Below, in pieces: positions 5,825 to 39,039 of a stretch of 64,000 nt of DNA. Origin of the DNA: Paractinoplanes deccanensis (GTDB taxonomy: Bacteria; Actinomycetota; Actinomycetes; Mycobacteriales; Micromonosporaceae). Positions within the stretch are counted from its first letter, which is position 1, and every line of letters starts with the position of its first letter. Where the stretch lies: the NCBI RefSeq assembly GCF_016862115.1, contig NZ_BOMI01000021.1, forward strand, positions 124,001 to 188,000, in the 5' to 3' direction. The position numbers and the translations under genes were made by a program. The notes under the pieces are model-generated. The model had not been told where the DNA came from, did no database searches, and saw nothing but the letters and a program-made list of their open reading frames with translations.

Positions 5825-7122
<1,298 letters not shown>

Positions 7123-13836: not shown

Positions 13837-15077
13837 CCCACTCCGACGCCGAGCAGGCGATCACCCGCGCTCACCACGAGGAGTGGGCACGGGTGATCGC
13901 CGGCCTCGCACGCCGCTTCGGCAGCCTCGACGTGGCCGAGGAGGCGGCGGCCGAGGCGTTCGCGGCCGCCGCGGAGAGGTGGCCGCGCGAGGGCGTACCG
14001 CCCCACCCCGGCGGCTGGCTGTCCACCACGGCCACCCGCAAGGCGATCGACTGGCTCCGTCGCGAGTCGCAGCGCGACGCCAAGCACAAGGCGGCCATGA
14101 TCGTGCACGACGACACCCCCGCCGAGCCGACCGGCCCCGTCGGCGACGACCGGCTCCGGCTGGTCTTCACCTGCTGCCATCCCGCGCTCGCGATGGAGGC
14201 GCGGGTGGCGCTCACCCTGCGCCTGCTCGGCGGGCTCACCGTCGCCGAGATCGCCCGCGCCTTCCTGGTGCAGGAGACGGCGATGGCGCGGCGGATCACC
14301 CGGGCCAAGGCGAAGATCAAGGCGGCGCGCATCCCGTACCGCGTGCCCTCGGCCGGCGACATCCGCGAGCGGCTGGCGGGCGTGCTCGCGGTGATCTACC
14401 TGGTCTTCAACGAGGGCTACCTCGCCGGCGAGGGCGACGACCCGGTGCGCGCGGACCTGACGGACGAGGCGATCCGGCTGGGCCGCCTGCTGCGCACCCT
14501 GCTCCCGGACAACGGCGAGGTGGCCGGGCTGCTCGCCCTGATGCTGCTCACCGACGCCCGGCGGCGGGCCCGCGTCTCGGCCACCGGCGAACTGGTCACC
14601 CTCGGCGAGCAGGACCGCGGCGCCTGGGACCGGGAGCTGATCGCCGAGGGCAGTGCCCTGGTCCGGGAACGGGTCGAGGCGGTGGCACGGGGCACGGACC
14701 TGCCGGGGCGCTACCAACTGCTGGCCGCGATCAACGCGGTGCACACGACTGCCCGCACCGCCGCGGAGACCGACTGGGCGGCGATCGTGGCGCTCTACGG
14801 TCAACTGGCGCGGGTGGACCCCTCGCCGATCGTGCGGCTCAACCGGGCGGTCGCGGTCGCCGAGGTGGACGGGCCGGGCGCCGGGCTCGCGGAGACCGAC
14901 GGTCTCGCCCCGGCTCTCGACGGCTACCACGCCTTCCACGCGGCGCGCGCCGACCTGCTGCGCCGGCTCGGGCGCACGGGCGAGGCGCTCACGGCGTACG
15001 ACCGGGCCATCGACCTCGCCGGCAACCCGGCCGAGCGCGCCTATCTCACCCGGCGCCGCGATCAGCTCGCGGCTTAG
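13833..15077 (+). CDS. ECF42-group RNA polymerase sigma factor with C-terminal TPR-like domain
   Basis: The 414-residue protein has sigma region 2 (about 10-80, with AIDWLRRESQRD), sigma region 4 (about 105-165, with LTVAEIARAFLVQETAMARR), then a helical, TPR-like C-terminal extension of over 200 residues (VIYLVFNEGYLA, INAVHTTA, RLNRAVAVAE). This architecture defines ECF42, in which the extension, rather than a separate anti-sigma factor, is thought to regulate activity. GTG 13833 overlaps the YCII stop, so the two are co-translated. Confidence 0.93.
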   Translation: MTHSDAEQAITRAHHEEWARVIAGLARRFGSLDVAEEAAAEAFAAAAERWPREGVPPHPGGWLSTTATRKAIDWLRRESQRDAKHKAAMIVHDDTPAEPTGPVGDDRLRLVFTCCHPALAMEARVALTLRLLGGLTVAEIARAFLVQETAMARRITRAKAKIKAARIPYRVPSAGDIRERLAGVLAVIYLVFNEGYLAGEGDDPVRADLTDEAIRLGRLLRTLLPDNGEVAGLLALMLLTDARRRARVSATGELVTLGEQDRGAWDRELIAEGSALVRERVEAVARGTDLPGRYQLLAAINAVHTTARTAAETDWAAIVALYGQLARVDPSPIVRLNRAVAVAEVDGPGAGLAETDGLAPALDGYHAFHAARADLLRRLGRTGEALTAYDRAIDLAGNPAERAYLTRRRDQLAA

Positions 15078-15189: not shown

Positions 15190-16143
15190 ATGAGCACGCA
15201 GACCCTGACCCGCACCGGAACGGCCATCGAGGTGTCCGGCCTGCATCAGCGGTACGGCGCCTTCGAGGCCGTCCGCGGAGTCGACTTCACCGTGCCGGGC
15301 GGCCGGTTGTTCGCCCTGCTCGGCACGAACGGCGCGGGCAAGACGACCACCATGGAAGTCCTGGAGGGCTTCCGGCCCGCCTCGTCCGGCACGGTCCGGC
15401 TGCTCGGCGCCGACCCGTACCGCGACCGCCGGGCGCTGCGGCCCCGGGTGGGGATCATGCTGCAGGAGAGCGGCCTGATCGGCGACCTCACCGCCGCCGA
15501 GACCGTCGACCTGTGGCGCGACCTGGCGAGGAACCCGCTCGGCCGGGACGAGGCCCTGGACCTGGTCGGCCTCGGCGACAAGGCCGGCGTCGCGGTGCGG
15601 CAGCTGTCCGGCGGGCAGAAGCGCCGCCTCGACCTGGCCCTCGCGGTCGTGGGCCGCCCCGAGGTCCTCTTCCTCGACGAGCCGACCACCGGCATGGACC
15701 CGGAGGCGCGCCTGGCCACCTGGCGGCTGATCCAGGACCAGGTCGCGGCCGGCACGACGGTGCTGCTCACCACGCACTACCTGGAGGAGGCGGAGCGGCT
15801 CGCCGACCGGATCGCGATCATGCACCGGGGAACGGTCCGGATCGACGGAACCGTGCCCGAGGTGGTCGCCGGCCACGGCGACCGGATCGCCTTCCGCGTC
15901 CCGGCGCACACGCCGATCGACGCGCTGCCGGCGCTCGACGGGATCCTCCCGGAGATCGCCGTGACCGACGGGCACCCCACCGCCCGCTACACGGTCACCG
16001 GCGGCGACCCGGACGGCCGCGCCCACCGGGCGGTCGCCTCCCTGCTGGCCTGGGCCGGCGAGCAGCGGGTCACCCTCGACCGGCTCGCGGTCCGCCCGGC
16101 CTCGCTCGAAGACGTGTTCCTGACCATCGTGGAGAACCAGTGA
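15190..16143 (+). CDS. ABC exporter ATP-binding protein (DrrA-like)
   Basis: The protein is 317 residues from ATG 15190 (ATG 15181 is an alternative). The nucleotide-binding domain shows Walker A GTNGAGKTTT, signature LSGGQKRRLDLALAV, Walker B VLFLDEPTTGMDP and the switch His in LLTTHYLEEAE. A C-terminal DrrA-type extension of about 90 residues ends in SLEDVFLTIVENQ. It would energise export of a drug or lipid with the permease encoded immediately downstream. First gene of a four-gene operon with a two-component system. Confidence 0.95.
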   Translation: MSTQTLTRTGTAIEVSGLHQRYGAFEAVRGVDFTVPGGRLFALLGTNGAGKTTTMEVLEGFRPASSGTVRLLGADPYRDRRALRPRVGIMLQESGLIGDLTAAETVDLWRDLARNPLGRDEALDLVGLGDKAGVAVRQLSGGQKRRLDLALAVVGRPEVLFLDEPTTGMDPEARLATWRLIQDQVAAGTTVLLTTHYLEEAERLADRIAIMHRGTVRIDGTVPEVVAGHGDRIAFRVPAHTPIDALPALDGILPEIAVTDGHPTARYTVTGGDPDGRAHRAVASLLAWAGEQRVTLDRLAVRPASLEDVFLTIVENQ

Positions 16144-16892
16144 AGACCGATCTCGCGCACGTCTACCGGCTGGCCCGGCTCGACCTGACCCTGATCTTCC
16201 GCAACCGGTCGGCGCTCACCAACGCCGTCCTGATGCCGCTGCTCGTCACCGGATTCCTGATCTTCACGGCGAAGCGGCAGGCCGGCGACGAGCAGCTGCG
16301 GTTCCTGCTCACCGGGCAGGTCGCCGCCCTCGTGCTGTTCGCCCCGCTGGTCAACCTGGCCGGCTTCTACACCAGCCGGCGCGAGGAACTGGTGCTCAAG
16401 CGGCTGCTCGGCGGCCCCGCGTCGGCGACCGCGATCCTCGGCGGCAGCGCGGCCGGCGCCGCCGCTGTTTACCTGCTCCAGGTCCTCGTGCTGTGCGTGG
16501 CCGCGGTGCCGCTCGGCGTCGGGTTGCCGGACAACCCGCCCCTCCTGCTGGCCGGTGCGCTGGCCGGCGCGGCCCTGTTCAGCCTGCTCTCGATGGTCAT
16601 CTCGGGGCTCAGCTCCAGCGGCGAGCTGGCCCAGATCGCCACCGTGCCGGTCATGCTGCTCTGCCTCTTCCTGTCGCCCGTGGTGGCCCCGCCGGACGCG
16701 CTGCCGGAGGCGCTGCGGGCCGTGGCCGGCTACCTGCCGATGACGCCGATGGCCGAGATCGTCCGCGCCGGCTTCCTCGGCGGCACGCGCTGGACGGAGA
16801 CGATGCAGTCGGCCGGCGTGCTGGCCGTGTGGGTGGCGGTGGCCGCGATACTGGCCCGGCGGTATTTTCGCTGGGATCCGCGGCGAGGCTGA
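16140..16892 (+). CDS. ABC-2 type exporter permease
   Basis: The 250-residue membrane protein has about six helices, starts at GTG 16140 and overlaps the ATPase stop (GTGA). The sequence runs from LTLIFRNRSALTNAVLMPLL to a C-terminal helix ending ILARRYFRWDP, the usual ABC-2 layout. It forms the membrane pore of the exporter; the substrate is unknown, though exporters paired with kinases in this way often respond to cell-envelope stress or antibiotics. Confidence 0.9.
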   Translation: MKTDLAHVYRLARLDLTLIFRNRSALTNAVLMPLLVTGFLIFTAKRQAGDEQLRFLLTGQVAALVLFAPLVNLAGFYTSRREELVLKRLLGGPASATAILGGSAAGAAAVYLLQVLVLCVAAVPLGVGLPDNPPLLLAGALAGAALFSLLSMVISGLSSSGELAQIATVPVMLLCLFLSPVVAPPDALPEALRAVAGYLPMTPMAEIVRAGFLGGTRWTETMQSAGVLAVWVAVAAILARRYFRWDPRRG

Positions 16893-27672: not shown

Positions 27673-27788
27673 GAGGCGTGGCTGTGGGGACGGCCACAGA
27701 TCGACTCTAGGAACGGCCGCGTGCCGGAGGCTTGTACGGTCGCGACGCCGGATGGCATTCCGGCGACACCGTCAGGGAAAGGCACGTG

Positions 27789-28787
27789 ATGAGCAGGCCC
27801 CGCTTCCTCGGACCGGGCGGCCGGGTGGGCACGTTCACCGTCGACGCCGAGTCCACCGGCGCCGGCCGCGGCACCTGGGAGCCGTTCGTCGACACCTGGA
27901 ACGACCGGATGGGCGACCTCTACCCGCTGCCGGAGTTCAGCGCCGCCACGGTTGACGGCTTCCGCGGCACGATGCGCTCGGTGGCCCTCCAGGACACCGC
28001 CATCAACGAGATGTGGGCGTCCTCGCCGATCAGCACCCGCGCGGTCGGCACCCACGAGCACGACGAGATCCGGCTGTACGTCGGCCTCCGCGGCGCCGTG
28101 ACGCTGCGAGACCCGCACGACCGGGCCGGCGACACGGACGTCCCGGCCGGCACCTACTTCGCCCACCACGTGGTGACGGAGAACCACTTCCACACCACGC
28201 CCGGCATCGCCACCCGCATCTTCATCTTCCCCGGCGACGCCCTGCGGTCCCTGGTCAGCGGCAGACCGCGCAGCGGCCCGGTCACCTCGCCCGCGGCGCA
28301 GATCCTGATGGCGCACGCCGGCATGGTCCAGCGCACCGTGGGCGGCCTCGGCGCGGCCGGCGCGCGAGCGTCCCGGGACGCCCTGATCGAGTTGGCCAAG
28401 GGACTGATCCTCGACCACTTCGACGACCATGAGCCCACCTTCGTCCCGGCGCTGGCGGAGGCGGCCAAGGAGCTCGCCGACGCGCGGCTCACCGATGCCG
28501 GCCTGTCGCCCGCCACCGTGGCCGCGCACCTGCACGTCTCGGTCCGCACCCTGCAACGGTCCTTCGCGGGCCTCGACGAGTCGTTCGCCGCGTACATCCG
28601 CCGCCGGCGCCTGGAGGAGGCGGCCCGCGCGCTCGCCGCGCCCGGGTCACGGCTCAGCGTGTCGCAGGCCGCGGCGATCTGGCAGTTCACCGACAGCAGC
28701 CACTTCATCCGTTCCTTCAAGAAGTGGTACGACGTGACGCCGGCCCAGTTCGCCCGGCTGCACGGCGCGGGCCGGGACGGCTCCTAG
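27789..28787 (+). CDS. AraC-family regulator with cupin-like N-terminal domain
   Basis: The protein is 332 residues from ATG 27789 (GGGAAAGG upstream). The N-terminal half has HEHDEIRLYVGLRGAV and YFAHHVVTENHFHTTP, resembling an effector-binding cupin-type fold. The C-terminal 100 residues hold two helix-turn-helix motifs (SPATVAAHLHVSVRTLQRSF and SVSQAAAIWQFTDSSHFIRS). It diverges from the oxidoreductase operon and could control it, though the TTGCTTCGA dyads do not look like AraC half-sites. It ends 51 bases before the sigma-54 gene. Confidence 0.88.
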   Translation: MSRPRFLGPGGRVGTFTVDAESTGAGRGTWEPFVDTWNDRMGDLYPLPEFSAATVDGFRGTMRSVALQDTAINEMWASSPISTRAVGTHEHDEIRLYVGLRGAVTLRDPHDRAGDTDVPAGTYFAHHVVTENHFHTTPGIATRIFIFPGDALRSLVSGRPRSGPVTSPAAQILMAHAGMVQRTVGGLGAAGARASRDALIELAKGLILDHFDDHEPTFVPALAEAAKELADARLTDAGLSPATVAAHLHVSVRTLQRSFAGLDESFAAYIRRRRLEEAARALAAPGSRLSVSQAAAIWQFTDSSHFIRSFKKWYDVTPAQFARLHGAGRDGS

Positions 28788-28838: not shown

Positions 28839-30107
28839 GTGCCGACGATGCCGGGTCTGACGCAGGTCGCCGAGGTGCGCCTCGGCGCCGAGCTGCGGAC
28901 GCTGCCCGCCGTCCTGCACTCGCTCGGGATGCTGCCGCTCGCCCAGCCCGCGCTGGCCCGCGAGGTGGATCGGGCGCTCGCCGGCAATCCGGTGCTGTGC
29001 CGCCGTTCCGGCGGGCCCTGCCCCGGCTGCGGGTGCCATCGGCCGCCCGGTGCGCCGTGCGTGCGGTGCACGGCGTCGGCGCGGCCCGTGGCGGAGCCCG
29101 CCGTGCGGCCGTTCGAGACGCTGGAGGCCCTGGCCGGGTGGGAGATCCGGTCGGACTGCCGTGCGGCGCTGCCGGTGGTTGTCGGGCATCTGACCGCGCG
29201 CGGGCTGCTCGACGACGAGCCGGAGAGCATCGCGGCGGCGAGCGGGCTGCCGGTGGCGGCGATCGAGGAGGCGATCCGGGCGGTGCGCGCGGCTGGGCCG
29301 CCGGGCATCGCCGAGCGCTCGGTCGCCGCCATGCTCGCGGCCCAGGCACAGTCCCTCGTGGACGGTGCGGAGGCGCCGGCCTGGCTGCCCGCGCTGGTGC
29401 GCGACCATCTGGCGGCGGTGGCGGACGGCGACCACGCGGGCATCGCGCGGGCCCTCGGCGTCTCGCCCGCGGCGGCCCGGGCGGCGATCGCGCTGATCCG
29501 GGCCCGGCTGCGGCCCTTCGCCCTGGCCGGCGGGGGCGCCGAGGCCGCCGGGCCGCCGCCCGACGCGTACGTCTCGCGGGGTGCCGGCGGTCAGTGGCGC
29601 GTCGAGGTGCCGGACAGCGCCTGGTTCGGGCTGCGGGTGGCCTCCGTGCCGCCCGCCGTGCGTGCCGATCCCGAGGCCGCCGCATGGCTTTCCCGGTACG
29701 AGCGCAGCGCCCGCGACCTCCTCCAGCAGCTCGACGTGCGGGCCGGCGTGCTGCGCCGGGTCACCGCCTGCGCGGTGCGCCACCAGGCCGGCTACTTCGA
29801 TCGCGGGCCGGCCGGGCACGTGCCGCTGACCCGCACCGAGGTCGCCGACGAGCTCGGGCTGCACCCCTCCACGGTGAGCCGCTGCGTGGCCGGCAAGACC
29901 GTGCGCGGGCCGGACGGCCGGCTGCTGCCGCTCGCCGCCCTCTTCGGCGGGGCGGTGGCGGCCAAGACCCGGGTCGCCGCGCTGCTGGCCGCGGACCCGC
30001 TGAGCGACGCGCAGGTGAGCCGCGCGCTCGCCGCGGAGGGTTTCACGGTGGCCCGGCGCACGGTCGCGAAGTATCGCGCCGAGCTCGGCATCGCGGCGCG
30101 AACCTGA
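28839..30107 (+). CDS. rpoN: RNA polymerase sigma-54 factor (RpoN)
   Basis: All sigma-54 landmarks are present in 422 residues: region I (7-52, ELRTLPAVLHSLGMLPL and REVDRALAGNPVL), the core-binding domain (about 95-315, with AAGPPGIAERSVAAMLAAQ), the helix-turn-helix for the -12 element (332-352, VADELGLHPSTVSRCVAGK) and the RpoN box for the -24 element (ARRTVAKYR, 405-413). In place of the usual acidic region II is a Cys cluster (C54, C61, C64, C66, C74, C77) that could bind zinc. Sigma-54 is generally considered missing from Actinobacteria. A -24/-12 promoter lies 70 bases downstream and an enhancer-binding protein closes the locus. GTG 28839 was chosen; ATG 28848 is possible. Confidence 0.92.
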   Translation: MPTMPGLTQVAEVRLGAELRTLPAVLHSLGMLPLAQPALAREVDRALAGNPVLCRRSGGPCPGCGCHRPPGAPCVRCTASARPVAEPAVRPFETLEALAGWEIRSDCRAALPVVVGHLTARGLLDDEPESIAAASGLPVAAIEEAIRAVRAAGPPGIAERSVAAMLAAQAQSLVDGAEAPAWLPALVRDHLAAVADGDHAGIARALGVSPAAARAAIALIRARLRPFALAGGGAEAAGPPPDAYVSRGAGGQWRVEVPDSAWFGLRVASVPPAVRADPEAAAWLSRYERSARDLLQQLDVRAGVLRRVTACAVRHQAGYFDRGPAGHVPLTRTEVADELGLHPSTVSRCVAGKTVRGPDGRLLPLAALFGGAVAAKTRVAALLAADPLSDAQVSRALAAEGFTVARRTVAKYRAELGIAART

Positions 30108-30141
30108 CTTCGCCCCTCCCGTACCCAGGACCCTCCCCGGC

Positions 30142-30157
30142 GCGAAGCGCGCTTCGC
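30142..30157. promoter_or_regulatory. 16-base palindrome between rpoN and the -24/-12 promoter
   Basis: GCGAAGCGCGCTTCGC is perfectly self-complementary. It lies 20 bases upstream of the -24 element and 35 past the rpoN stop, so it could be an activator site of the enhancer-binding protein, a terminator stem, or both. Enhancer sites are usually farther upstream, so this is tentative. Confidence 0.4.
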
Positions 30158-30177
30158 TCTCGGCCCGCCCGGCGGCC

Positions 30178-30193
30178 TGGCACGGATTGTGCG
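30178..30193 (+). promoter_or_regulatory. Sigma-54 (-24/-12) promoter
   Basis: TGGCACG-GATT-GTGCG has the invariant GG and GC at the required 12-base distance and matches the TGGCACG-N4-TTGCW consensus except at the first base of TTGC and the final position. Predicted start near 30204 leaves a leader of about 24 bases with a GAGGGGAG ribosome-binding site before the first operon gene. No sigma-70-like boxes are apparent here. Confidence 0.8.
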
Positions 30194-30227
30194 GTACCGG
30201 GGCGAGGAGACCAGAGGGGAGCAAGGC

Positions 30228-30902
30228 ATGCACGACATCGACCGAGCACTGTTCGAAGCCGAGGGCGAGTTCGAGTCCGAGTTCGAGGACGAGTTCGAGT
30301 CCTTCGGCGAGGCGGAGGGCGAGGACCGGGAGACCGCACTCGCCACCGAGCTGCTGGAGATCAGCTCGGAGGAGGAGCTGGACCGGTTCATCGGCAGCCT
30401 GCTGAACGGCGCGGTGTCCGCGGCGCGCAACTTCGCCCGCTCCAGCGCCGGGAAAGCCGTCGGCGGCATGGTGAAGCAGGCGGCCCGCCAGGTGCTGCCC
30501 CGCATCGGCCAGGCGCTGGGCGACGCGGTCGGCGGCAAGACCGGCGGGGCCATGGGACAGCGGGCCGGCAAGTGGCTGAGCCGGCAGTTCGAGGGCGAGC
30601 AGTACGAGGGCGAGTTCGGCGTCCAGACGGAGGGTCTGTCCGCCGAGGACCGCGAGTTCGAGCTCGCGCGCACGTTCGTCCGGTTCGCCGACGAGGCCGC
30701 GCGGCGTGCGGCGAGCGCGGGACCCGGCGTGCAGCCGCAACAGGCCGCCCAGCAGGCGGCGATCGCGGCCGCCCGCACCCACCTTCCCGGGCTGCTGCGG
30801 CCCGGGCCGGCACAGGCCGGCCCGCGCGGCAACGGCGGGCAGCAGCGCAGCGAGGGCCGCTGGGTCCGGCGCGGCAGCCGCATCGTGATTCTCGACGTGT
30901 GA
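30228..30902 (+). CDS. Acidic-repeat / amphipathic protein A of the sigma-54 operon
   Basis: Of the 224 residues, 8-32 are an acidic Phe-Glu ladder (EGEFESEFEDEFESF). Then ELLEISSEEELDRFIGSLL, a Gly/Ala/Lys segment with amphipathic helices (about 65-125, GKAVGGMVKQAARQVLP and GKTGGAMGQRAGKW), a second acidic patch (GEQYEGEF), a helical part with FVRFADEAARRA, and a C-terminal GRWVRRGSRIVILDV. There is no signal peptide or known domain. The next gene encodes a paralogue with the same order of parts. The middle resembles membrane-active peptides while the flanks would neutralise it; that is inference. It starts the -24/-12 operon. Confidence 0.85.
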   Translation: MHDIDRALFEAEGEFESEFEDEFESFGEAEGEDRETALATELLEISSEEELDRFIGSLLNGAVSAARNFARSSAGKAVGGMVKQAARQVLPRIGQALGDAVGGKTGGAMGQRAGKWLSRQFEGEQYEGEFGVQTEGLSAEDREFELARTFVRFADEAARRAASAGPGVQPQQAAQQAAIAAARTHLPGLLRPGPAQAGPRGNGGQQRSEGRWVRRGSRIVILDV

Positions 30903-30923
30903 CCAGGAACGGAGGACCTTCCG

Positions 30924-31730
30924 ATGTACGAGACGACTTTCGAGATCCCCGGTGAGAGCTTCGAGTCCTACGAGAACGAGGGCGAGTCCTACGAGAGCGA
31001 GTCCTACGAGAGCCAGGGCGAGGGCGAGTCGTTCGAGGGCGAGGCCGAGCTGGTCCAGGAGCTCATGGAGATCAGCTCCGAGGCCGAGATGGACCGCTTC
31101 CTCGGCAAGCTGGCCGGCAGCATCGTCCGCGGCGCCGGCAAGTTCATCAAGTCCCCGGTCGGCAAGGCGCTCGGCGGGGTGCTCAAGAACGTCGCCAAGC
31201 GGGCGCTGCCCGTGGTCGGCGGCGCGCTCGGCTCGATGGTGATGCCCGGCGCGGGCACGGCGATCGGCGCCAAGCTCGGCGGCCTGGCCGGTGGCCTGCT
31301 GGAGGCCGAGGAGGCCGAGTCGATGGGCGAGGTCGAGGCCGAGTACGAGGCGGCGACCCGCTACGTGCGGTTCGCGCGGGCGGCGTACGGGAACGCGGCC
31401 CGCGCGCCCCGGAACCTGCCGCCGCGGGCGATCGTGCGCGCGGCCAGCATCAGCGCGGCCCGCCGGTACGCGCCGTCGCTGCTGCACGGCGACCAGCGCC
31501 GGGGGCAGTGGCGCGGGCGCCGTCGCGGCTATCCGATGTGGGCGGCCTACGAGCCGCAGCCCTGGTACGGCGGCAACGGTTACGACCCGGGCGACGGCGA
31601 CGACGGATACGACGACGGGTACGAGGGTGAGGGCGCCGGCGGCCGGTCGAGCGGCGGCGGCAACGGCAACCGCGCCGCCGAGGGCCGGTGGGTCCGCCGC
31701 AAGGGACGCATCGTCGTCCTCGGTGCCTGA
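30924..31730 (+). CDS. Acidic-repeat / amphipathic protein B of the sigma-54 operon
   Basis: The 268-residue paralogue of protein A has an N-terminal acidic ladder with Phe and Tyr (ESFESYENEGESYESESYES), the shared LMEISSEAEMDRFLGKL motif, a Gly/Ala/Lys segment (about 65-130, GKALGGVLKNVAKRALPVV and MPGAGTAIGAKLGGLAGGL), a helical FVRFA-like part (YVRFARAAYGNAAR), an extra Gly/Tyr/Asp-rich stretch (DPGDGDDGYDDGY), and the terminal GRWVRRKGRIVVLGA. The conserved last 15 residues in both suggest a recognition or export tag. GGAGG precedes the ATG; 21 bases separate it from A. Confidence 0.85.
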   Translation: MYETTFEIPGESFESYENEGESYESESYESQGEGESFEGEAELVQELMEISSEAEMDRFLGKLAGSIVRGAGKFIKSPVGKALGGVLKNVAKRALPVVGGALGSMVMPGAGTAIGAKLGGLAGGLLEAEEAESMGEVEAEYEAATRYVRFARAAYGNAARAPRNLPPRAIVRAASISAARRYAPSLLHGDQRRGQWRGRRRGYPMWAAYEPQPWYGGNGYDPGDGDDGYDDGYEGEGAGGRSSGGGNGNRAAEGRWVRRKGRIVVLGA

Positions 31731-31740
31731 GCGGTCCCCG

Positions 31741-33111
31741 ATGCCGGACAACCCGATGCTGGATACCCCGATGCCGGACGCCCCGATGCCGGACGCCGCG
31801 GCCTTCGCCACGCGCCTGCTGCGCGACGAGGCGCGCGGGCTGCTCACCCGGCTCGACCAGGTGCGGCCGTTCGCCCTGCACGAGACCATGGTGCTGGCCG
31901 CCGCCCTGCCGTACGGCGCGCACGTGACCATCGAGCGGTTCCTGCACGCCGCCCGCGGCCATCTGCGTGCTCGCGTGTACGCGTACCTGCACTGGCTCGA
32001 CGGCATCGGCAGCCGGGCCACCGCCGCCGAGCAGCAGCGCCGGTTCGTGCTGATCCGGCTCGAGTTCAACGCCGTGCTGTCGCAGTTCGACCTGTTCACC
32101 GAGGTGATCACGCAGCGCAGCGAGCACGGCACCGGCGTGTGGCTGTCCGGCCTGGACGTGCTGGCCGCCGACGCGCTGCGGGTCGACGTGGCGGGGTACG
32201 AGCCGCCGCCGGTGGTCTGCTACCTGGCCCGGGGGCCGGGCGCGGCGATCCGCCGGGCGCGCACCCGGCTGCCCGGCGGCCGGCCCAACCCGGTGGCGAT
32301 CATCCGGGTGCCGCGGGAGCGGATGGTCGGCGGTTCGGTGGCGTCCAGCCTGATCCACGAGGTGGGCCACGAGTGCTCGGCCCAGCTCGGCCTGGTCGAG
32401 TCGATGCGGCGCGACATCGCCGCGGCGGCTCGGCGCCATCCGGGCGGCCGAGGGCAGGGCGGCAGCTGGCCGGCGTGGCACGCGTGGATCGGCGAGATCC
32501 TCGCGGACTGCTTCGCGGTCGGCCGGCTCGGCATCGCCGGCACGGTGGGGCTGCTCGCGGTGGTCAGCCTGCCGGCGTACTTCGTCTTCCGGCCCTCCGG
32601 CGACGACCCGCACCCGGTGCCGTACCTGCGGGTCCTGATCAGCGCGGGGATCGGGGAGGCGCTGTATCCGCATCCGCAGTGGGCGGCGCTGCGCCGGGCG
32701 TGGAAGGACCTCTACCCGCTCGGCGAGCTGCCGGCCGAACGGGTGGCGCAGCTGCGCCGGATCGAGGCGGACATCCCCGAGCTGGTCGATCTGCTGCTGA
32801 GCCACAGCCCGGCGGCGCTCGGCGGCCGGCGCCTGGGCGACATGTTCGACGCGGGCAGGCGTACGCCGCAACGGCTCCTGCATTTGCACCGGCAATGGGC
32901 CGGCGACGTGGGCGTGCTGGCCCGGCGGTCGCCGTCGCTGGTCTTCGCCGTTCTCGGCCAGGCCAAGGCGGCCGACCTGATCTCGCCCGAGCGGGAGAGC
33001 CGGATGCTGTCCACCCTGCTCGCCGCGTGGGCGGTGCGCAGCAGCCTCGATGTCGTGCAGAACACCAGCAGAACCCGGGCGCCGGCTCTGCAGCCGACCG
33101 GGTGGTCATGA
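31741..33111 (+). CDS. Putative HExxH zinc metalloprotease of the sigma-54 operon
   Basis: The 456-residue protein contains LIHEVGHECSAQLG (206-219), an HExxH zinc motif; E252 in WIGEILADCFAVG is a candidate third ligand. A hydrophobic stretch (267-283, GTVGLLAVVSLPAYFVF) follows. The N-terminus has short MPDxP repeats (1-18). No known peptidase family is recognisable beyond the motif. Possible role: processing the two acidic proteins encoded just upstream. ATG 31741 is 10 bases after the previous stop; a GTG upstream overlapping that stop is an alternative start. Confidence 0.75.
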   Translation: MPDNPMLDTPMPDAPMPDAAAFATRLLRDEARGLLTRLDQVRPFALHETMVLAAALPYGAHVTIERFLHAARGHLRARVYAYLHWLDGIGSRATAAEQQRRFVLIRLEFNAVLSQFDLFTEVITQRSEHGTGVWLSGLDVLAADALRVDVAGYEPPPVVCYLARGPGAAIRRARTRLPGGRPNPVAIIRVPRERMVGGSVASSLIHEVGHECSAQLGLVESMRRDIAAAARRHPGGRGQGGSWPAWHAWIGEILADCFAVGRLGIAGTVGLLAVVSLPAYFVFRPSGDDPHPVPYLRVLISAGIGEALYPHPQWAALRRAWKDLYPLGELPAERVAQLRRIEADIPELVDLLLSHSPAALGGRRLGDMFDAGRRTPQRLLHLHRQWAGDVGVLARRSPSLVFAVLGQAKAADLISPERESRMLSTLLAAWAVRSSLDVVQNTSRTRAPALQPTGWS

Positions 33112-33126
33112 GAAAGGACGAGCGAC

Positions 33127-34755
33127 GTGCGCATTTCATGGAATCCGGAAGTGATCCGGGTCGGCCAGGTGGCCAACCTCGTGGTGCTGCTGGACAAGAC
33201 CGACGAGGAAGGCGACTACACGTTCCGGTTCGCCGACCCCAACGACGACCCGTTCGAGGGCGGCTTCGAGGTGCCGCTGAAGTTCGGCCAGTTGCAGGAC
33301 TTCGAACCCGAGATCCAGTTCACCACGCCCGGGACGAAGGAGCTCCAGGTCACCAAGGGCAGCCGGGCGAGCACCGAGGGCACCGAGCCGTGGCAGCGAG
33401 TCCCGATCCCGGTGGTGGCGGCGTCGTCGGCCGGCGCGCCACCGCAGAGCGTGGCGCTGGTGGCCGGCGATCCGCCGCAGAGCGACGACGAGGTGCTGTG
33501 GAGCTTCATCCGGCTGCTCACCCGCCAGCTGCGGTTCGAGGAGTTCCACCAGTTCGTCGAGGCGCAGATGACCAACCTGCCCGAGCGGGACTGGTTCGGC
33601 CGGCAGTCGCACCAGACGCTGGTGCGGGCGGCCGAGCGCTTCGTGGAGGCCGCCGCCGATCCGATCCGGGCCGTGGAGAAGAGCCAGCTGCTCAAGCACG
33701 AGCTGCGCCCGGCCACTGTGCTCGGCGCGCTGGAGCGCTCGTACGTCAGCAGCGAGAGCGACGCCCTCGCCCAGCCCTTCCTGGACGAGGAGCGCAACGG
33801 CGGCAACGGCGACAACGGGAAGCGGCCGTCGACTGCGCTCGCCCGCTACCGCCGCTCCAAGGAGGCCGGTGCCCAGTTCCCGCTGCCGAACATCCCGTTC
33901 GTCGAGCTGATCTGGTCGTACTGGATGGAGGAGGGCGCCCTGGTGCAGACGATGAACCACATCATGGCCCGCTTCCAGAACCGGCGGATGGCGCGCGACC
34001 CGCTGGCCCGCTTCGACCTCAACCCGCTGCTGCCGCTGCGCAGCCTGCTCTGGGGCTACACCGAGGCGGAGCGGCGGCGGCTGACCATCCGGCGGCGGGC
34101 GGCCGAGTACATGGTCCAGTACGGGCTGCCGCTGGTCGGCCGGGCGGTGCCGCCGCCGGACACGCTGACGGACCACCGCACGCAGTTCCTGGAGGGCTTC
34201 CACGCGCTGCTGCACGACGCCTACCGCTTCTACAAGGAACGCGACGACAAGACCGTCGACGCGGACGCCTTCCCGCTGCTGAGCAGCCTGCGCGAGGTGC
34301 ATCTGGTGCTGGCGCACGGCGCGCACAACCAGTTCGCGGACCTGCCGCTGGTGGCCCGCGCCGAGATGCTCGAGATGCAGTGGATCCTGGCGCAGCCGGA
34401 GATGCGGGAGTTCCTCGGCGGGCCGACCATGGTGCCGTACGAAGAGGACTGGATGGACCGGGTCGAGACCATGAAGACCCTGATGGGCTGGCCGGCCGCG
34501 AGCATCACGCACTTCTTCGAGCTGGCGGTGACCGGCGAGCAGATCGTGCTGTCCATCCGGCACGGGCGGTGGAACGAGTCGGACCGCACCCGCGACCACG
34601 CGGCGAACTGGGCGCTGACCTGGCGCAACGAGATCCAGCGCTACATTCACGCCTACCGGGCGGTGACCGGCGTGGACCTGGCCACCAGCACCGACGCGAC
34701 GCCGCCGGCGCTGCTGCTGACCCGGCGCGTCCCGCAGCGGGGACGGCGCGGGTGA
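33127..34755 (+). CDS. Large orphan protein of the sigma-54 operon
   Basis: The 542-residue protein, GTG start, opens with a beta-rich domain of about 95 residues (ISWNPEVIRVGQVANLVVLL, then DYTFRFADPNDDPFEGGF), followed by a long helical region rich in Trp, Tyr and Arg (LPNIPFVELIWSYWMEEGAL, LNPLLPLRSLLWGYTEAER, ADAFPLLSSLREVHLVLAHG). I recognise no family. No signal peptide or clear membrane helix, so probably cytoplasmic. A structural or scaffold part is possible from its size and composition. It overlaps the next gene by GTGA. Confidence 0.8.
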   Translation: MRISWNPEVIRVGQVANLVVLLDKTDEEGDYTFRFADPNDDPFEGGFEVPLKFGQLQDFEPEIQFTTPGTKELQVTKGSRASTEGTEPWQRVPIPVVAASSAGAPPQSVALVAGDPPQSDDEVLWSFIRLLTRQLRFEEFHQFVEAQMTNLPERDWFGRQSHQTLVRAAERFVEAAADPIRAVEKSQLLKHELRPATVLGALERSYVSSESDALAQPFLDEERNGGNGDNGKRPSTALARYRRSKEAGAQFPLPNIPFVELIWSYWMEEGALVQTMNHIMARFQNRRMARDPLARFDLNPLLPLRSLLWGYTEAERRRLTIRRRAAEYMVQYGLPLVGRAVPPPDTLTDHRTQFLEGFHALLHDAYRFYKERDDKTVDADAFPLLSSLREVHLVLAHGAHNQFADLPLVARAEMLEMQWILAQPEMREFLGGPTMVPYEEDWMDRVETMKTLMGWPAASITHFFELAVTGEQIVLSIRHGRWNESDRTRDHAANWALTWRNEIQRYIHAYRAVTGVDLATSTDATPPALLLTRRVPQRGRRG

Positions 34756-35819
34756 CCGGATCCGGCGGCGACTTCACCTCGTCGCTCTTCCTGGGCCTGC
34801 GGCACGGCAGCGCCGGCCTGCCCGAGTGGGCGGCGCTGACCACCGGCGTGCCCGCCGCGCTGGCCGAGCGCGAGCCGGCCCGCCGGGTCGCCGCGGCCGT
34901 CGCGGCGTCACAGAGGGCGCAGGCGGGGGTGGCCGCCCGGTCGGCGTTGCACGCCCTGATGGACGTGCTCGGGACGCTGCCGCGGCGCGGCGACGTGGTG
35001 GCGATCGACGCGGCCGCGTACCCGATCACGGAATGGGCGGCGCTGCGGGCCGCCGCCCGCGGTGCGGTGGTGCGGCGCTATCCGCACCACCGGCCGGAGC
35101 TGCTGCGGCCGCCGCGCGGCAGGCGGCTGGTCGTGGTCGCCGACGGCTGGTGTGCGGGCTGCGGGCGCCCGGCTCCGCTGCCGCGGCTGCGCTCGCTCGC
35201 CCACGCCGGTGACGGGGTGCTGGTGGTGGACGACTCGCTGGCCTTCGGCGTGCTCGGGCGCCGCGACGGCCCGGGCTTCGGCGACGGCACGGGCACGCCG
35301 CGCTGGTGGGGCCTCGGCCACGAGGGCGTGGTCTGGGTGGCGTCGCTGGCCAAGGCGTACGGGGCGCCGATGGCCGTGACGACCGGGCCCCGCGACCTGG
35401 TGGCCCGGCTCGCGGCCGGCGGCGGCAACCGCACGCACAGCAGCCCGCCGACCGCCGCGGACGTCGCGGCCGCCACCCGGGCACTGGACGACCCGGACCG
35501 CAACGCCGCCCGGCGGGCCCGGCTGCTGCGGCACACCAGGGTCATCGGCGACGTCCTGGGCCTCCGCGGCCCGCCGTTTCCGATGGTCAGCATCCGCTCG
35601 GCCGGGCCGGACGAGGCCCGGCGGTGGTGGCGCGCGTTGCGGCGGCAGGGGATCGCCACGGTGCCGCAACGGTCCCGGTGCCGCGACGACATCCGGCTCA
35701 CCGCGCTGCTGCGCGCCGACCACAGCGAGCGCGACGTCGCCCGGCTCGCGGCCGCGCTGCGACAGGCCGCGCTGCGACAGCTGCCGCCGCGCGACGAACT
35801 CCGGCGGGCCGCCGCGTGA
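34752..35819 (+). CDS. PLP-dependent fold-type I enzyme, KBL/BioF-like
   Basis: The 355-residue protein, GTG start, has GVLVVDDSLAFGVLGRRDGPG, corresponding to the DEAHS.GV.G..G.G motif of 2-amino-3-ketobutyrate ligase and 8-amino-7-oxononanoate synthase with altered residues. WVASLAKAYGAP holds the probable cofactor Lys. The C-terminal small domain is short, and the usual D-E-A-H is D-D-S-L, so a non-standard reaction or a regulatory role is possible. Cotranslated with its neighbours in the sigma-54 operon. Confidence 0.8.
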   Translation: MTGSGGDFTSSLFLGLRHGSAGLPEWAALTTGVPAALAEREPARRVAAAVAASQRAQAGVAARSALHALMDVLGTLPRRGDVVAIDAAAYPITEWAALRAAARGAVVRRYPHHRPELLRPPRGRRLVVVADGWCAGCGRPAPLPRLRSLAHAGDGVLVVDDSLAFGVLGRRDGPGFGDGTGTPRWWGLGHEGVVWVASLAKAYGAPMAVTTGPRDLVARLAAGGGNRTHSSPPTAADVAAATRALDDPDRNAARRARLLRHTRVIGDVLGLRGPPFPMVSIRSAGPDEARRWWRALRRQGIATVPQRSRCRDDIRLTALLRADHSERDVARLAAALRQAALRQLPPRDELRRAAA

Positions 35820-35877
35820 ACGGCCGGCCGGTCATCCTGGAGGGCCGCCGCGTGAACGGGTGGCCGGTGATCGACGC
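35806..35877 (+). repeat. 36-base imperfect tandem duplication spanning the amidohydrolase start
   Basis: Units 35806-35841 and 35842-35877 share the first 18 bases exactly, including GCCGCCGCGTGAACGG with the GTG start. The result is two in-frame GTG starts 36 bases apart. Confidence 0.8.
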
Positions 35878-36625
35878 GCATTGTCACGCCGGGCAGGGTG
35901 ACGGGCTCACCGGCCCGTGGGACACGGAGGCCCCGCTCGACCGGTACGCGGCCCGGGCCCGCGAGGCCGGCATCGACCGCACCGTGCTGTTCGCGCCGCT
36001 CACCTCCGACTACCGGCCCGCCAACCGGGCGGTCGGCGCGATCGTGCGGGCCGAGCCGCGCCGCTATCTCGGGTTCGCCTTCGTCAACCCGGTCGCCGAC
36101 CGGGGCCGCGTCGGCGAGCTGGTGCACGAGGCCCGCGCGTGGGGCGCCTGCGGGATCAAGGTGCACTGGCGCGACGGCCGGATCACCCGGGAGATCGCCG
36201 AGGTGGCCGGGCGGGCCGGGTTGCCGGTGCTCTACGACCCGGGCGGCGACCTGGCGGCGGTCGAGATGGCCGCGCGGGCGTACCCGCGGGTGGCCTGGAT
36301 CGTGCCGCACCTGTCCTCGTTCGGCGACGACTGGAAGGCGCAGGTGGCCTTCGCCGATCAGCTCGTCAGGCTGCCGAACCTGTTCACCGACACCTCGGGT
36401 GTCCGCTACTTCGACCTGCTCGCCGACGCCGTCCGCCGGGCCGGCCCGGACAAGGTCCTGTTCGGATCGGACGGACCGTTCCTGCATCCAGGCGTCGAGA
36501 TCAGCAAGATCCACGCGCTGCACCTGCCGGCCGCGGACGCCGCGCTGGTCCTCGGCGGCAACCTGCTGCGCCTCACCCGGGCGGCCCGCGGCCGCCACCG
36601 AGCCCTTCTCCGGAGGTCATCATGA
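35852..36625 (+). CDS. Amidohydrolase-2-like metal-dependent hydrolase
   Basis: The protein is 257 residues from GTG 35852 (GGAGGG upstream); GTG 35816, overlapping the previous stop, is the alternative. The TIM-barrel family motif DAHCHAG supplies the HxH metal ligands, GIKVHWRDG a further His, VPHLSSFGDDW another, and LFGSDGPF the conserved Asp. Relatives hydrolyse or decarboxylate aromatic acids. It is followed by the last operon gene with an ATGA overlap. Its substrate and its link to the acidic proteins are unknown. Confidence 0.85.
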   Translation: MNGWPVIDAHCHAGQGDGLTGPWDTEAPLDRYAARAREAGIDRTVLFAPLTSDYRPANRAVGAIVRAEPRRYLGFAFVNPVADRGRVGELVHEARAWGACGIKVHWRDGRITREIAEVAGRAGLPVLYDPGGDLAAVEMAARAYPRVAWIVPHLSSFGDDWKAQVAFADQLVRLPNLFTDTSGVRYFDLLADAVRRAGPDKVLFGSDGPFLHPGVEISKIHALHLPAADAALVLGGNLLRLTRAARGRHRALLRRSS

Positions 36626-37275
36626 GCACCCACGCCGTCGAGCTCGAGACGCCGCGCTGGTCCGCGGCGCCGGCCCGGCTCCACACCAGCAAGCCGCCGC
36701 CGAAGATCACGCTGGCGGCGAAGGGATTCCTCGAGATCAAACCGCACACGGTCAACGGCATCGCCAAGGGCATCGCCCAGATCCGGCGCAGGCTGAACGC
36801 CGGCGAGGGCACCGTCGGCGTGCTGGTCACCTACCTGGCCGTCGACGCGCGGGACAACGTGATCACCTCCGGCCGGGCCGCCCACGTGCACCTGTTCATG
36901 GCCACCGTGCGCAAGGCCGGTGACGCGGTCAGCACGTACCGGACGTCGGGTCCCTGGACCCACATCGGGCGGGTGCCGGTCCCCGCGACGCTGCCGCATC
37001 CCCAGGTCGACCAGATGTCGCAGTTCGGCCAAGCGATCGAGCCGGCCGTGCAGGGAAAGGTACGGCAGGTCATCCGCCGCTGGTACGCGGGCGTCAAGTT
37101 CGCCGCGGGCACCGGCGGCCACCGCACCGGCGCCGACATGCGGTGGACCTCGCTGGCCGAGCTCTACGCCGAGCTCGGCAACGAGCTGCGCGACCCGTTC
37201 TGGCAGGACCTGGCCGTCAGCCTCACGGGCGCTCGCGGCTCTGCTGCCGGCGCAGGTGCAGGGCGCGGTCGGTGA
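36622..37275 (+). CDS. Last gene of the sigma-54 operon, unknown
   Basis: The 217-residue protein starts at ATG 36622 with CGGAGG before it. Basic N-terminal half (KITLAAKGFLEIKPHTVNG, IAQIRRRLNAGEGTVGVLV), a beta-rich centre (RAAHVHLFMATVRKAGDAV), and a C-terminal helical part (ELYAELGNELRDPFWQDLAV). I do not recognise a family. No signal peptide. Its 3' end overlaps the convergent enhancer-binding protein gene by 53 bases, which ties the two tightly. Confidence 0.75.
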   Translation: MSTHAVELETPRWSAAPARLHTSKPPPKITLAAKGFLEIKPHTVNGIAKGIAQIRRRLNAGEGTVGVLVTYLAVDARDNVITSGRAAHVHLFMATVRKAGDAVSTYRTSGPWTHIGRVPVPATLPHPQVDQMSQFGQAIEPAVQGKVRQVIRRWYAGVKFAAGTGGHRTGADMRWTSLAELYAELGNELRDPFWQDLAVSLTGARGSAAGAGAGRGR

Positions 37276-38563
37276 CCCCCAGGCGGGCGGCCGCCGCGCG
37301 CACGTTGCCGCCCGACTCCTCCAGCGCCGCCGCCACCGCCAGGTCCGCCACGTGCTCGCGCAGCTGCTTCAGCGTGTGGCCGGCGCGCAGGTGCTCGCGG
37401 ACCGACTCGGCCAGCGCGCCCGCGGACTCGGCCGGCTCGCCCGGCGGCGGACCGTCGAGCGTCACGGGCGGCCGGTCCTCGGGCGGCAGGTCGCCGGGCG
37501 TGACCGGCCCCGGCCCGACGTGCCGCGCCGCCACCCGGCAGGCCAGCTGCCGCAGGTCGCGCAGGTTGCCCGGGAACGACCGGGCGCGCAGCGCGCTGCG
37601 CACCGCCGGCCCCACGGTGACCGGCCCGCCGAGCGCCTCGAGGAGGAACTCCTCGAACAGCGGGATGACGTCGGCGCTGCGGTCGCGCAGCGGAGGCAGC
37701 CGGATCTGGTACGCGGCGATCCGGTAGTAGAGGTCCGCCCGGAACCGCCCGGCCGCCACCTCGTCCTCCAGCACCCGGTTGGTGGCGCACACCAGCCGGA
37801 AGCGGGCGCGCTGCCAGGTGTCCGCGCCGACCCGCTTGTAGGTGCCCTCCTGCACCACCCGCAGCAGCTCCGGTTGCAGCTCCAGCGGCAGCTCACCGAC
37901 CTCGTCGAGCATCAGCGTGCCGCCGTCGGCCGCCGCGCAGGCGCCCGTGCGCACCCCGACCGCCCCGGTGAACGCGCCCCGCTCGTGGCCGAACAGCTCG
38001 CTGCCGGCCAGCCCCGGCACGATCGTCGTGCAGTCGACGACCACGAGGTGCCCGGTGCGCGCCGCCGGGCTGACCGCGTGCACCACGCGCGCCGCGAGCT
38101 CCTTGCCCGTACCCGTCTCGCCGGTGATGAGAATCGGGCCGGTGCCGAAGCAGGCCGCCGTGACCAGGTCGCGCAGCGCCTCCCGCAGCGCCGGGCTGCG
38201 GCCCTTGAGCACGCCCGCCACGGCCGGCGAGTCCACGATCCGGTCGACGGCGGCGAGCCGCCGCAGCTTCTCCGTCACCAGCCGCGGATCCCCGTCCCAC
38301 ACCGCCACGTCGCACGCGCCGAGCGCCAGCAACCGCCACGGCTCCGCGACCCCCGGCGCCTCGGTCACCACGATGACCTGGGCCCCGGCCGCCGCGCGCA
38401 GCGCCTCGGCGAGCACCGTCGCGTCCTCGTCGCAGACGATGACCCCGATCTGATCGCGCGGGTCCGGCGCCCGCACGCACCGTAGCGTCGGCTCCGCGTC
38501 TCGCAGCGCCGCGGCAATGGCCGCCGTGCCGGGGCGCGCGCCGATGTCGAGCATCCACGCCAT
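37223..38563 (-). CDS. Sigma-54-dependent enhancer-binding protein (bEBP)
   Basis: The 446-residue protein has an N-terminal receiver-like domain of about 110 residues (VIVCDEDATVLAEALR, AQVIVVTEAPG) with no obvious phospho-acceptor. The AAA+ domain has Walker A GETGTGK (148-154), the sigma-54-contacting loop GAFTGA (196-201), Walker B LMLDE (217-221) and the Arg-finger region FRADLYYRI. A Fis-type helix-turn-helix (about 413-437, GGNVRAAAARLGVTDRALH) ends it. GAFTGA is diagnostic for proteins that remodel sigma-54 holoenzyme. It is convergent to the operon it presumably activates; ATG 38563 faces an AT-richer leader. Confidence 0.93.
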   Translation of the reverse strand: MAWMLDIGARPGTAAIAAALRDAEPTLRCVRAPDPRDQIGVIVCDEDATVLAEALRAAAGAQVIVVTEAPGVAEPWRLLALGACDVAVWDGDPRLVTEKLRRLAAVDRIVDSPAVAGVLKGRSPALREALRDLVTAACFGTGPILITGETGTGKELAARVVHAVSPAARTGHLVVVDCTTIVPGLAGSELFGHERGAFTGAVGVRTGACAAADGGTLMLDEVGELPLELQPELLRVVQEGTYKRVGADTWQRARFRLVCATNRVLEDEVAAGRFRADLYYRIAAYQIRLPPLRDRSADVIPLFEEFLLEALGGPVTVGPAVRSALRARSFPGNLRDLRQLACRVAARHVGPGPVTPGDLPPEDRPPVTLDGPPPGEPAESAGALAESVREHLRAGHTLKQLREHVADLAVAAALEESGGNVRAAAARLGVTDRALHLRRQQSRERP

Positions 38564-38668: not shown

Positions 38669-38703
38669 GGGCACCGCCCCGCGCCACCCGCATGCTTGAC
38701 GGC

Positions 38704-39039
38704 ATGACGACCTACGCCGTGGCCCACCTGCGCACCCCGACGACGAACGACGACGTCATCCGCTACATCGAGCGCATCCAGGACACGCTGGACCCGTACG
38801 GCGGCCGTTTCCTGGTCCACGGCAAGCAGGTGGAGGTCATCGAGGGCAGCTGGCCGGGGACGATCGTCATCATCGCGTTCCCGGACTCGGCGGCCGCGCA
38901 CGCCTGGTACGCCTCCGACGCGTACCAGGAGATCCTGCCCCTGCGCACCGACCACATCGAGGGCAGCGCGATCTTCGTGGACGGGGTGGGCCCCGACTAC
39001 GACCCTCGGGTCACGGCGGCGGCGCTGCGGGCCGGCTGA
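38704..39039 (+). CDS. DUF1330 family protein
   Basis: The 111-residue ferredoxin-like alpha/beta barrel protein starts MTTYAVAHLRTPTTNDD and contains the family stretch GRFLVHGKQVEVIEGSWPG followed by IVIIAFPDSAAAHAWY. Members are small dimers of unclear function, some stress-linked. Divergent from the enhancer-binding protein gene but with no evident link to that system. ATG 38704 is chosen over ATG 38692 because homologues start at this MTTYA-like sequence. Confidence 0.85.
   Translation: MTTYAVAHLRTPTTNDDVIRYIERIQDTLDPYGGRFLVHGKQVEVIEGSWPGTIVIIAFPDSAAAHAWYASDAYQEILPLRTDHIEGSAIFVDGVGPDYDPRVTAAALRAG

Follow-up and report, generated by a model that had tools for sequence, protein, structure and literature searches.

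A probable self-contained sigma-54 switch in Paractinoplanes deccanensis and other actinobacteria, with sigma factor, activator, promoter-like site, and operon at one locus

A locus encoding the sigma factor sigma-54 (RpoN) was analysed in a 64,000-nucleotide stretch of Paractinoplanes deccanensis DNA (contig NZ_BOMI01000021.1, positions 124,001 to 188,000 of the forward strand), hereafter the window. The locus occupies positions 28839-38563 and consists of rpoN, a -24/-12 promoter-like site, seven packed genes (A to G), and a convergent gene for a bacterial enhancer-binding protein (bEBP), the activator; together these are referred to as the cassette. The seven genes span 30228-37275 with intergenic gaps of -4 to 21 bases, and the activator gene, on the minus strand, overlaps gene G by 53 bases. 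A sequence-only reading of the same DNA had called a seven-gene operon and had given both ends of the locus exactly. Genes A and B encode mutually related proteins, for which the label FEGE was coined in the present analysis. The features are listed in Table 1.

Table 1. Features of the sigma-54 locus in the window
Feature	Position	Strand	Basis
RpoN (sigma-54), actinobacterial clade, 422 aa	28839..30107	+	Pfam DBD and CBD, homologues, structure model, tree
CxxC...CxxC zinc-ribbon-like motif in RpoN (C61, C64, C74, C77)	29019..29069	+	Alignment of 28 sequences
RpoN box ARRTVAKYR	30051..30077	+	Sequence; columns mostly invariant in 28-sequence alignment
-24/-12 promoter-like site CTGGCACGGATTGTGCG; predicted start near 30204	30177..30193	+	10/11 consensus; place kept in relatives
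Gene A, FEGE-type protein 1, 224 aa	30228..30902	+	Related to gene B; tblastn across loci
Gene B, FEGE-type protein 2, 268 aa	30924..31730	+	Homologue search
Gene C, predicted zinc metallopeptidase, 456 aa	31741..33111	+	HEVGH plus ExxAD
Gene D, Ig-like sandwich (1-100) and conserved helical domain, 542 aa	33127..34755	+	Homologues, model
Gene E, BioF-like PLP-enzyme relative, 355 aa	34752..35819	+	NCBIfam bioF
Gene F, Amidohydro_2 hydrolase, 269 aa	35816..36625	+	Pfam PF04909
Gene G, variable slot, 217 aa	36622..37275	+	EIKP motif common with relatives
Sigma-54 activator (bEBP) with receiver-like N-terminus, GAFTGA-bearing AAA+ core, and putative Fis-like HTH	37223..38563	-	Pfam, NCBIfam, motifs

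RpoN was counted in actinobacterial genomes by searching with PF04552, the window's own genome being included. Fourteen clear RpoN loci, the window among them, were opened, and the cassette genes were sought in them by tblastn. Eighty ordinary rpoN loci were used as outgroups and as a control.

The window RpoN matched Pfam Sigma54_DBD (PF04552, E = 1.9e-28) and Sigma54_CBD (PF04963, E = 1.6e-16) and carries the exact box ARRTVAKYR, in agreement with the RpoN box and sigma-54 core recognised earlier from the letters. Its match to NCBIfam rpoN_sigma (E = 3.2e-46) reached 158 bits, the curated cut-off being 277. The AlphaFold2 model had a mean pLDDT of 88.7, and a Foldseek search with it gave 30 matches at E ≤ 0.001, all of them solved sigma-54 chains. 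Region I had been called unmistakable in the sequence-only reading; PF00309 gave no call in the window protein, and a precomputed PF00309 match was present for 6 of the first 82 RpoN homologues listed. A profile built from an alignment of 28 hand-picked RpoN sequences did match region I of the solved sigma-54 chain 8f1i_M (i-E = 3e-4), which weakly suggests that region I is present in the window RpoN. The rpoN reading frames were uninterrupted in 14/14 clear loci. A TAG flagged in rpoN of relative G879 was rejected as an interruption, being the stop codon of the gene itself.

Cassette RpoN resembles canonical sigma-54 (e.g., PDB 8f1i) in its region I pattern, core-binding domain, helix-turn-helix (HTH), and RpoN box, and differs from it by a zinc-ribbon-like cysteine motif, a narrow locus-linked distribution, and its placement in one deep clade. 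The motif (CxxC...CxxC or CxxC...CC) was present in 13 of the 14 cassette RpoNs, being absent from that of G016, and its four cysteines were near-invariant in the 28-sequence alignment. It occupies the stretch separating region I from the core-binding domain, which in canonical sigma-54 is the acidic region II, and was modelled as a small ordered element that is inferred to bind zinc.

The site 5' of gene A, CTGGCACGGATTGTGCG (30177-30193), has 10 of 11 consensus bases with the GG-N10-GC spacing at 30178-30192. This score was reached by 4 of 1000 mononucleotide shuffles of the interval between rpoN and gene A, and in the 20 kb examined neither strand contained another such site. Loose -24/-12 matches occur often in G+C-rich DNA. 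Because loose consensus scans of the whole window yielded fewer sites than shuffled DNA, the case for a promoter rests on position and conservation and not on the motif alone. Twelve of the 14 actinobacterial loci, that of the window among them, showed a site of at least 10/11 upstream of their first FEGE gene; no more than 4 of 1000 shuffles attained the score in any of the twelve, and the -12 element was GTGC in 8 of the 14, again including the window. The -24/-12 promoter proposed from the letters was thus borne out in bases, spacing, and conserved place, and 30178-30192 is predicted to be a sigma-54-type promoter. In G957 and the three G280-genus loci, an additional site of at least 10/11 was found 5' of rpoN, or of a gene C preceding rpoN; in G976, a site at this place scored 9/11 (all of these sites being scored without shuffle comparison). 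At these loci, rpoN would be self-activating. No -24/-12 site was found 5' of rpoN in the window. As a separate observation, G957 (locus L113) and G976 (L114) carry a further site, CTGGCCCGGTTCTTGCTG, on the minus strand near 14890 and 14411, respectively (rpoN being oriented +), at a gene that points to the activator. The G957 gene encodes DUF2272 and Phage_lysozyme2 domains, and its longest frame begins upstream of the site.

The activator matched Pfam Sigma54_activat (PF00158, E = 1.6e-52) and contains GAFTGA, Walker A, and Walker B motifs, so that an AAA+ protein with GAFTGA does lie at the far end of the locus, as had been read. Its C-terminal HTH matched HTH_8 (E = 1.5e-4) with 21.8 bits against a cut-off of 22, and its best NCBIfam match was RtcR (E = 1.3e-71, under cut-off). 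The loop motif was GAFTGA in 12 and GSFTGA in 3 of 15 activators. The AAA+ core with GAFTGA, and probably the Fis-like HTH, are shared with bEBPs of the RtcR, NorR, and NtrC types. These families carry CARF, GAF, or receiver domains, whereas the N-terminus of the window activator looks like a receiver with no obvious phospho-acceptor.

The FEGE proteins have an acidic N-terminus, a glycine-zipper-like middle, and an end of the GRWVRRG.RIVIL type, and a genome search located two FEGE genes, both at this locus. Gene B had 426 homologues at E ≤ 0.001 and matched Gly-zipper_Omp under cut-off (E = 9.5e-4). FEGE B homologues were also seen in Friedmanniella, Nocardioides, and Actinomycetospora on contigs that were not matched in the RpoN list, and FEGE genes without RpoN may therefore occur. 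Gene C homologues have HExGH in 15/15 and a downstream ExxAD in 12/15, a combination that is a zinc metallopeptidase pattern. Gene C matched nothing in Pfam or NCBIfam at E ≤ 0.1 and had no relative in the PDB by sequence at E ≤ 1, and its product is predicted to be a zinc metallopeptidase. Gene D had 963 homologues at E ≤ 0.001; its model (pLDDT 82.5) gave Ig-like matches in the fold search, mainly over residues 1-101, with the helical part barely covered by the searches, and no known family was found. Gene E matched NCBIfam bioF (E = 1.2e-18, far under cut-off), and gene F matched Pfam PF04909 (E = 9.5e-17) and, by sequence, PDB 3cjp. Gene E was detected in 8/13 complete loci and gene F in 9/13. 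The motif G-x2-EIKP-x5-I-x2-G-x2-Q, with EIKP invariant, is common to the window G protein and those of four relatives.

Gene content between D or E and the activator differs among relatives. G016 has an M20 peptidase gene at the place of F, G280 has an Amidase_2 gene in the variable slot, and in G957 a gene for DUF2272 with Phage_lysozyme2 lies behind the activator on the activator's strand. The slot gene of Ensifer encodes PG_binding_1 with GIY-YIG, and a 934-aa protein of Rhizobium (L164, 13384-16188), encoded between E and the activator, combines an acidic FEGE-like start with PG_binding_1, DUF2272, and Glucosaminidase. A divergent gene for a DUF6345 protein (E = 3e-81) was also observed adjoining rpoN in G957 (16090-16770).

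RpoN was detected in 2/60 relatives and in 4/67 genomes of the window's genus. In the class search, in which at most nine candidates per genome were scored, so that misses are possible, it was detected in 7/394 genomes at E ≤ 0.001: the window, G337, and G280 were clear, G419 was marginal, and three were under the family cut-off. RpoN being common and conserved in all relatives would have spoken against an acquired switch, and these counts are far from that distribution. The G337 genus had seven clear matches and one weak match among 150 genomes, and the G280 genus had 3/40. Weak matches in G419, G360, G181, G296, and G814 were not counted as clear RpoN. Among them, G419 alone was opened, and its locus held no cassette gene above chance-level matches. 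Genera with RpoN homologues include Kribbella, Arthrobacter, Pseudarthrobacter, Nocardia, Rhodococcus, Mycolicibacterium, and Citricoccus. The absence of sigma-54 from Actinobacteria, which the sequence-only reading had taken as widely reported, is near-total and not absolute, given the relatives in several genera and two metagenome-assembled genomes (MAGs) with another RpoN. In these Actinomycetota MAGs (L003, 10001-11020, and L006, 9431-10453, one of them Coriobacteriaceae), RpoN falls outside the cassette clade; an activator-like match lies 1.6-1.9 kb downstream of rpoN, and no C, D, or FEGE match was found.

FEGE genes were located beside rpoN in 14/14 clear loci, and C, D, and the convergent activator in 13/14, the fourteenth (G898) ending at a contig edge. 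The activator was found at E ≤ 1e-20 in 4/67 genomes of the genus (at most 25 candidates per genome being scored, with misses possible), and these were the four with RpoN, with one match each. The parts therefore occur as the self-contained set that had been proposed, with RpoN, activator, site, and operon genes together in the opened loci. Among the first 82 RpoN homologues listed, 40 were on contigs of 9 kb or more; at least 28 of these 40 (window included) had a D or B homologue on a contig of equal size, a proxy for co-location based on the best 120 of the 963 D homologues and the best 120 of the 426 B homologues. C, D, or FEGE genes were found in none of the 80 ordinary rpoN loci (profile scan of genome contigs, many loci being short). 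When the C-terminal 287 residues of D were searched against 396 genomes of the phylum, the window alone was matched, which points to rarity but carries no information on spread.

In the RpoN tree (hand-picked rows, midpoint root), one group on a long branch (100/100) brought together the 14 cassette RpoNs with twelve close and three more distant homologues, with RpoNs of Anaerolineae on the cassette group's side of the tree (98/97). The window RpoN grouped with sequences of the Kribbella type, the Nocardia type, and the G337 genus, apart from its three genus-mates (100/100). Likewise, the window C and activator clustered with the G337 genus and not with the three other same-genus clusters (100/99 and 100/100). 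Forcing the same-genus clusters into one clade was rejected by approximately unbiased (AU) tests for C (p = 0.0103), the activator (p = 1.07e-7), and RpoN (p = 7.2e-11), the tests having been set up after the trees had been viewed. Because the four same-genus clusters do not form one clade, the trees indicate that sigma factor, activator, and operon have moved together between actinobacterial families; this and the presence in 4/67 same-genus genomes uphold the horizontal acquisition suggested earlier. A 115-aa gene directly downstream of the cassette (38692-39039) was found in 22/67 same-genus genomes at E ≤ 1e-20, its own included.

FEGE, C, and D genes with a convergent activator were also located on replicons of Ensifer adhaerens, Rhizobium sp. 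CCGE532, and Paraburkholderia phymatum. In Ensifer and Rhizobium, a site matching 11/11 precedes the FEGE genes, giving a full -24/-12 match in two of the three operons. Unlike the window, these operons have no linked rpoN match in the 19-25 kb read around each (25 kb in Ensifer, 19 kb in Rhizobium), and they carry other slot genes, e.g., for peptidoglycan hydrolases. The three hosts presumably have a chromosomal rpoN. The comparison fits a sigma factor that was added, or kept, where the host has none, with the direction of transfer possibly either way. In Rhizobium L164, two divergent sigma-54-like sites were observed 258 bases apart, at 6996 (-) and 7254 (+), each directed towards a FEGE-type match, that on the minus strand being weak.

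In its passages on this phylum, a 2025 survey (PMC12316311) reports rpoN candidates in 4/173 Actinomycetota and judges the phylum to be effectively without functional RpoN. Statements in two other papers give rpoN in 2/182 (PMC3372290) and a phylum lacking the sigma-54 system (PMC3162934). The survey names Citricoccus sp. SGAir0253, Alloactinosynnema sp. L-07, and Modestobacter marinus BC501 and dismisses them as not bona fide, domain scores being missing; its section on these RpoN cases does not discuss a linked operon. The RpoN of Citricoccus SGAir0253 (E7744_01085), although dismissed there, falls in the cassette clade, and a FEGE B homologue (E7744_01075) has a nearby locus tag and is on a contig of equal size. 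No paper describing the cassette was found in the titles and abstract openings of the open-access papers matched by the searches. The parts are of known kinds; as far as was found, the transferable self-sufficient arrangement, the sigma-54 with a cysteine motif, and the operon appear to be undescribed.

Sequence and comparison establish the parts, the conserved order in which they lie and occur together, and trees that call for transfer between actinobacterial families. As a whole, the cassette is probably a self-contained, horizontally spreading sigma-54 switch, in which RpoN and the activator would open a single promoter and so induce an operon whose products are predicted to form an envelope-directed antibacterial module. 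Holoenzyme with the cassette RpoN would sit closed at 30178-30192 until a signal sensed through the receiver-like N-terminus releases the activator, which would then oligomerise, hydrolyse ATP, and open the promoter. Since sigma-54 needs an activator, low background would be expected, and having a private sigma factor would insulate the operon against the host network. An all-or-none response was a supposition of the sequence-only reading. Actinobacterial hosts normally lack sigma-54, which would be why the cassette brings one along; the proteobacterial version would use that of the host. The FEGE glycine-zipper proteins A and B, the metallopeptidase, the Ig/helical protein, and the exchangeable hydrolases or nuclease-like proteins may act against neighbouring cells. 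That the operon is an antibacterial, envelope-directed or lytic module is suggested tentatively, at somewhat less than an even chance, because its core genes are accompanied by exchangeable wall-hydrolase and nuclease-like genes in relatives. It is likewise possible, though rather more apt to be wrong than right, that this is a mobile weapon cassette carrying its own specificity for RNA polymerase. Its zinc-ribbon sigma-54, single activator, and single promoter would then stay linked so as to run an antibacterial operon under sigma-54 control in a phylum lacking that factor, as a system private to the cassette and orthogonal to sigma-70-type factors of the host.

Several results weigh against an antibacterial sigma-54 switch. 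The best sites before the first FEGE gene in G957 and G976 scored 9/11, which was reached by 76 and 78 of 1000 shuffles and is chance level, and P. phymatum had no -24/-12 site by the same scoring (481/1000 shuffles). No insertion point was located, the window's other flanking genes not lying beside the 115-aa gene in five clusterless relatives. No cell-wall hydrolase was recognised with Pfam and NCBIfam among the window's seven genes, and the operon genes fit no PADLOC defence model. The G proteins of the four relatives scored 16.8-22.9 bits against Tox-REase-9 (curated cut-off 27.3), while window G gave no Tox-REase-9 match and reached no toxin family. Genes E and F look metabolic. The switch could be real and the operon a metabolic or peptide-maturation pathway, with FEGE precursors or scaffolds, C as the processing protease, and E and F as tailoring enzymes. 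This is a doubtful alternative that nevertheless draws on the enzyme superfamilies to which E and F belong, on the HExxH peptidase adjoining small acidic proteins, and on the M20 hydrolase at the place of F in G016; but E and F are not core, being undetected in 5/13 and 4/13 complete clusters, respectively, and the variable-slot genes of some relatives encode cell-wall hydrolases or nuclease-like proteins.

It is improbable that RpoN and the activator control a wider regulon across the genome, with the operon beside them as just one of many targets. Allowing no more than one mismatch, the pattern was matched at 64 places in the genome, but the backward control gave 238, and a genome-wide regulon was rejected on this comparison; of three exact matches, both besides that of the window lie inside predicted coding frames, and each same-genus RpoN genome has one activator match. 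Finally, it is very improbable that the sigma factor and its activator are relics in decay, the assumption made about RpoN of actinobacteria in the 2025 survey. The missing PF00309 call and the NCBIfam score below the curated cut-off would fit decay, yet the RpoN box, region I pattern, GAFTGA/GSFTGA, and promoter have been kept over deep divergence, and the frames are uninterrupted in all 14 loci.

Next to the locus, an AraC-type regulator gene (27732-28787) on the same strand as rpoN stops 51 bases 5' of it, and co-transcription is possible. No integrase or transposase was found with Pfam and NCBIfam among the ten window proteins scanned. PADLOC models run on nine proteins matched the AAA core of the activator (RtcR models) and, weakly, the HTH of RpoN, and nothing else.

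In Actinomycetota, sigma-54 is thus seen to recur within a single transferable cassette that also carries an activator, a predicted promoter, and target genes. The cassette adds a sigma-54 whose insert resembles a zinc ribbon, and an uncharacterised operon that plant-associated proteobacteria also carry. It may serve as an orthogonal switch for expression work in actinobacteria, and it would provide a clean test case for why sigma-54 is nearly absent from the phylum.

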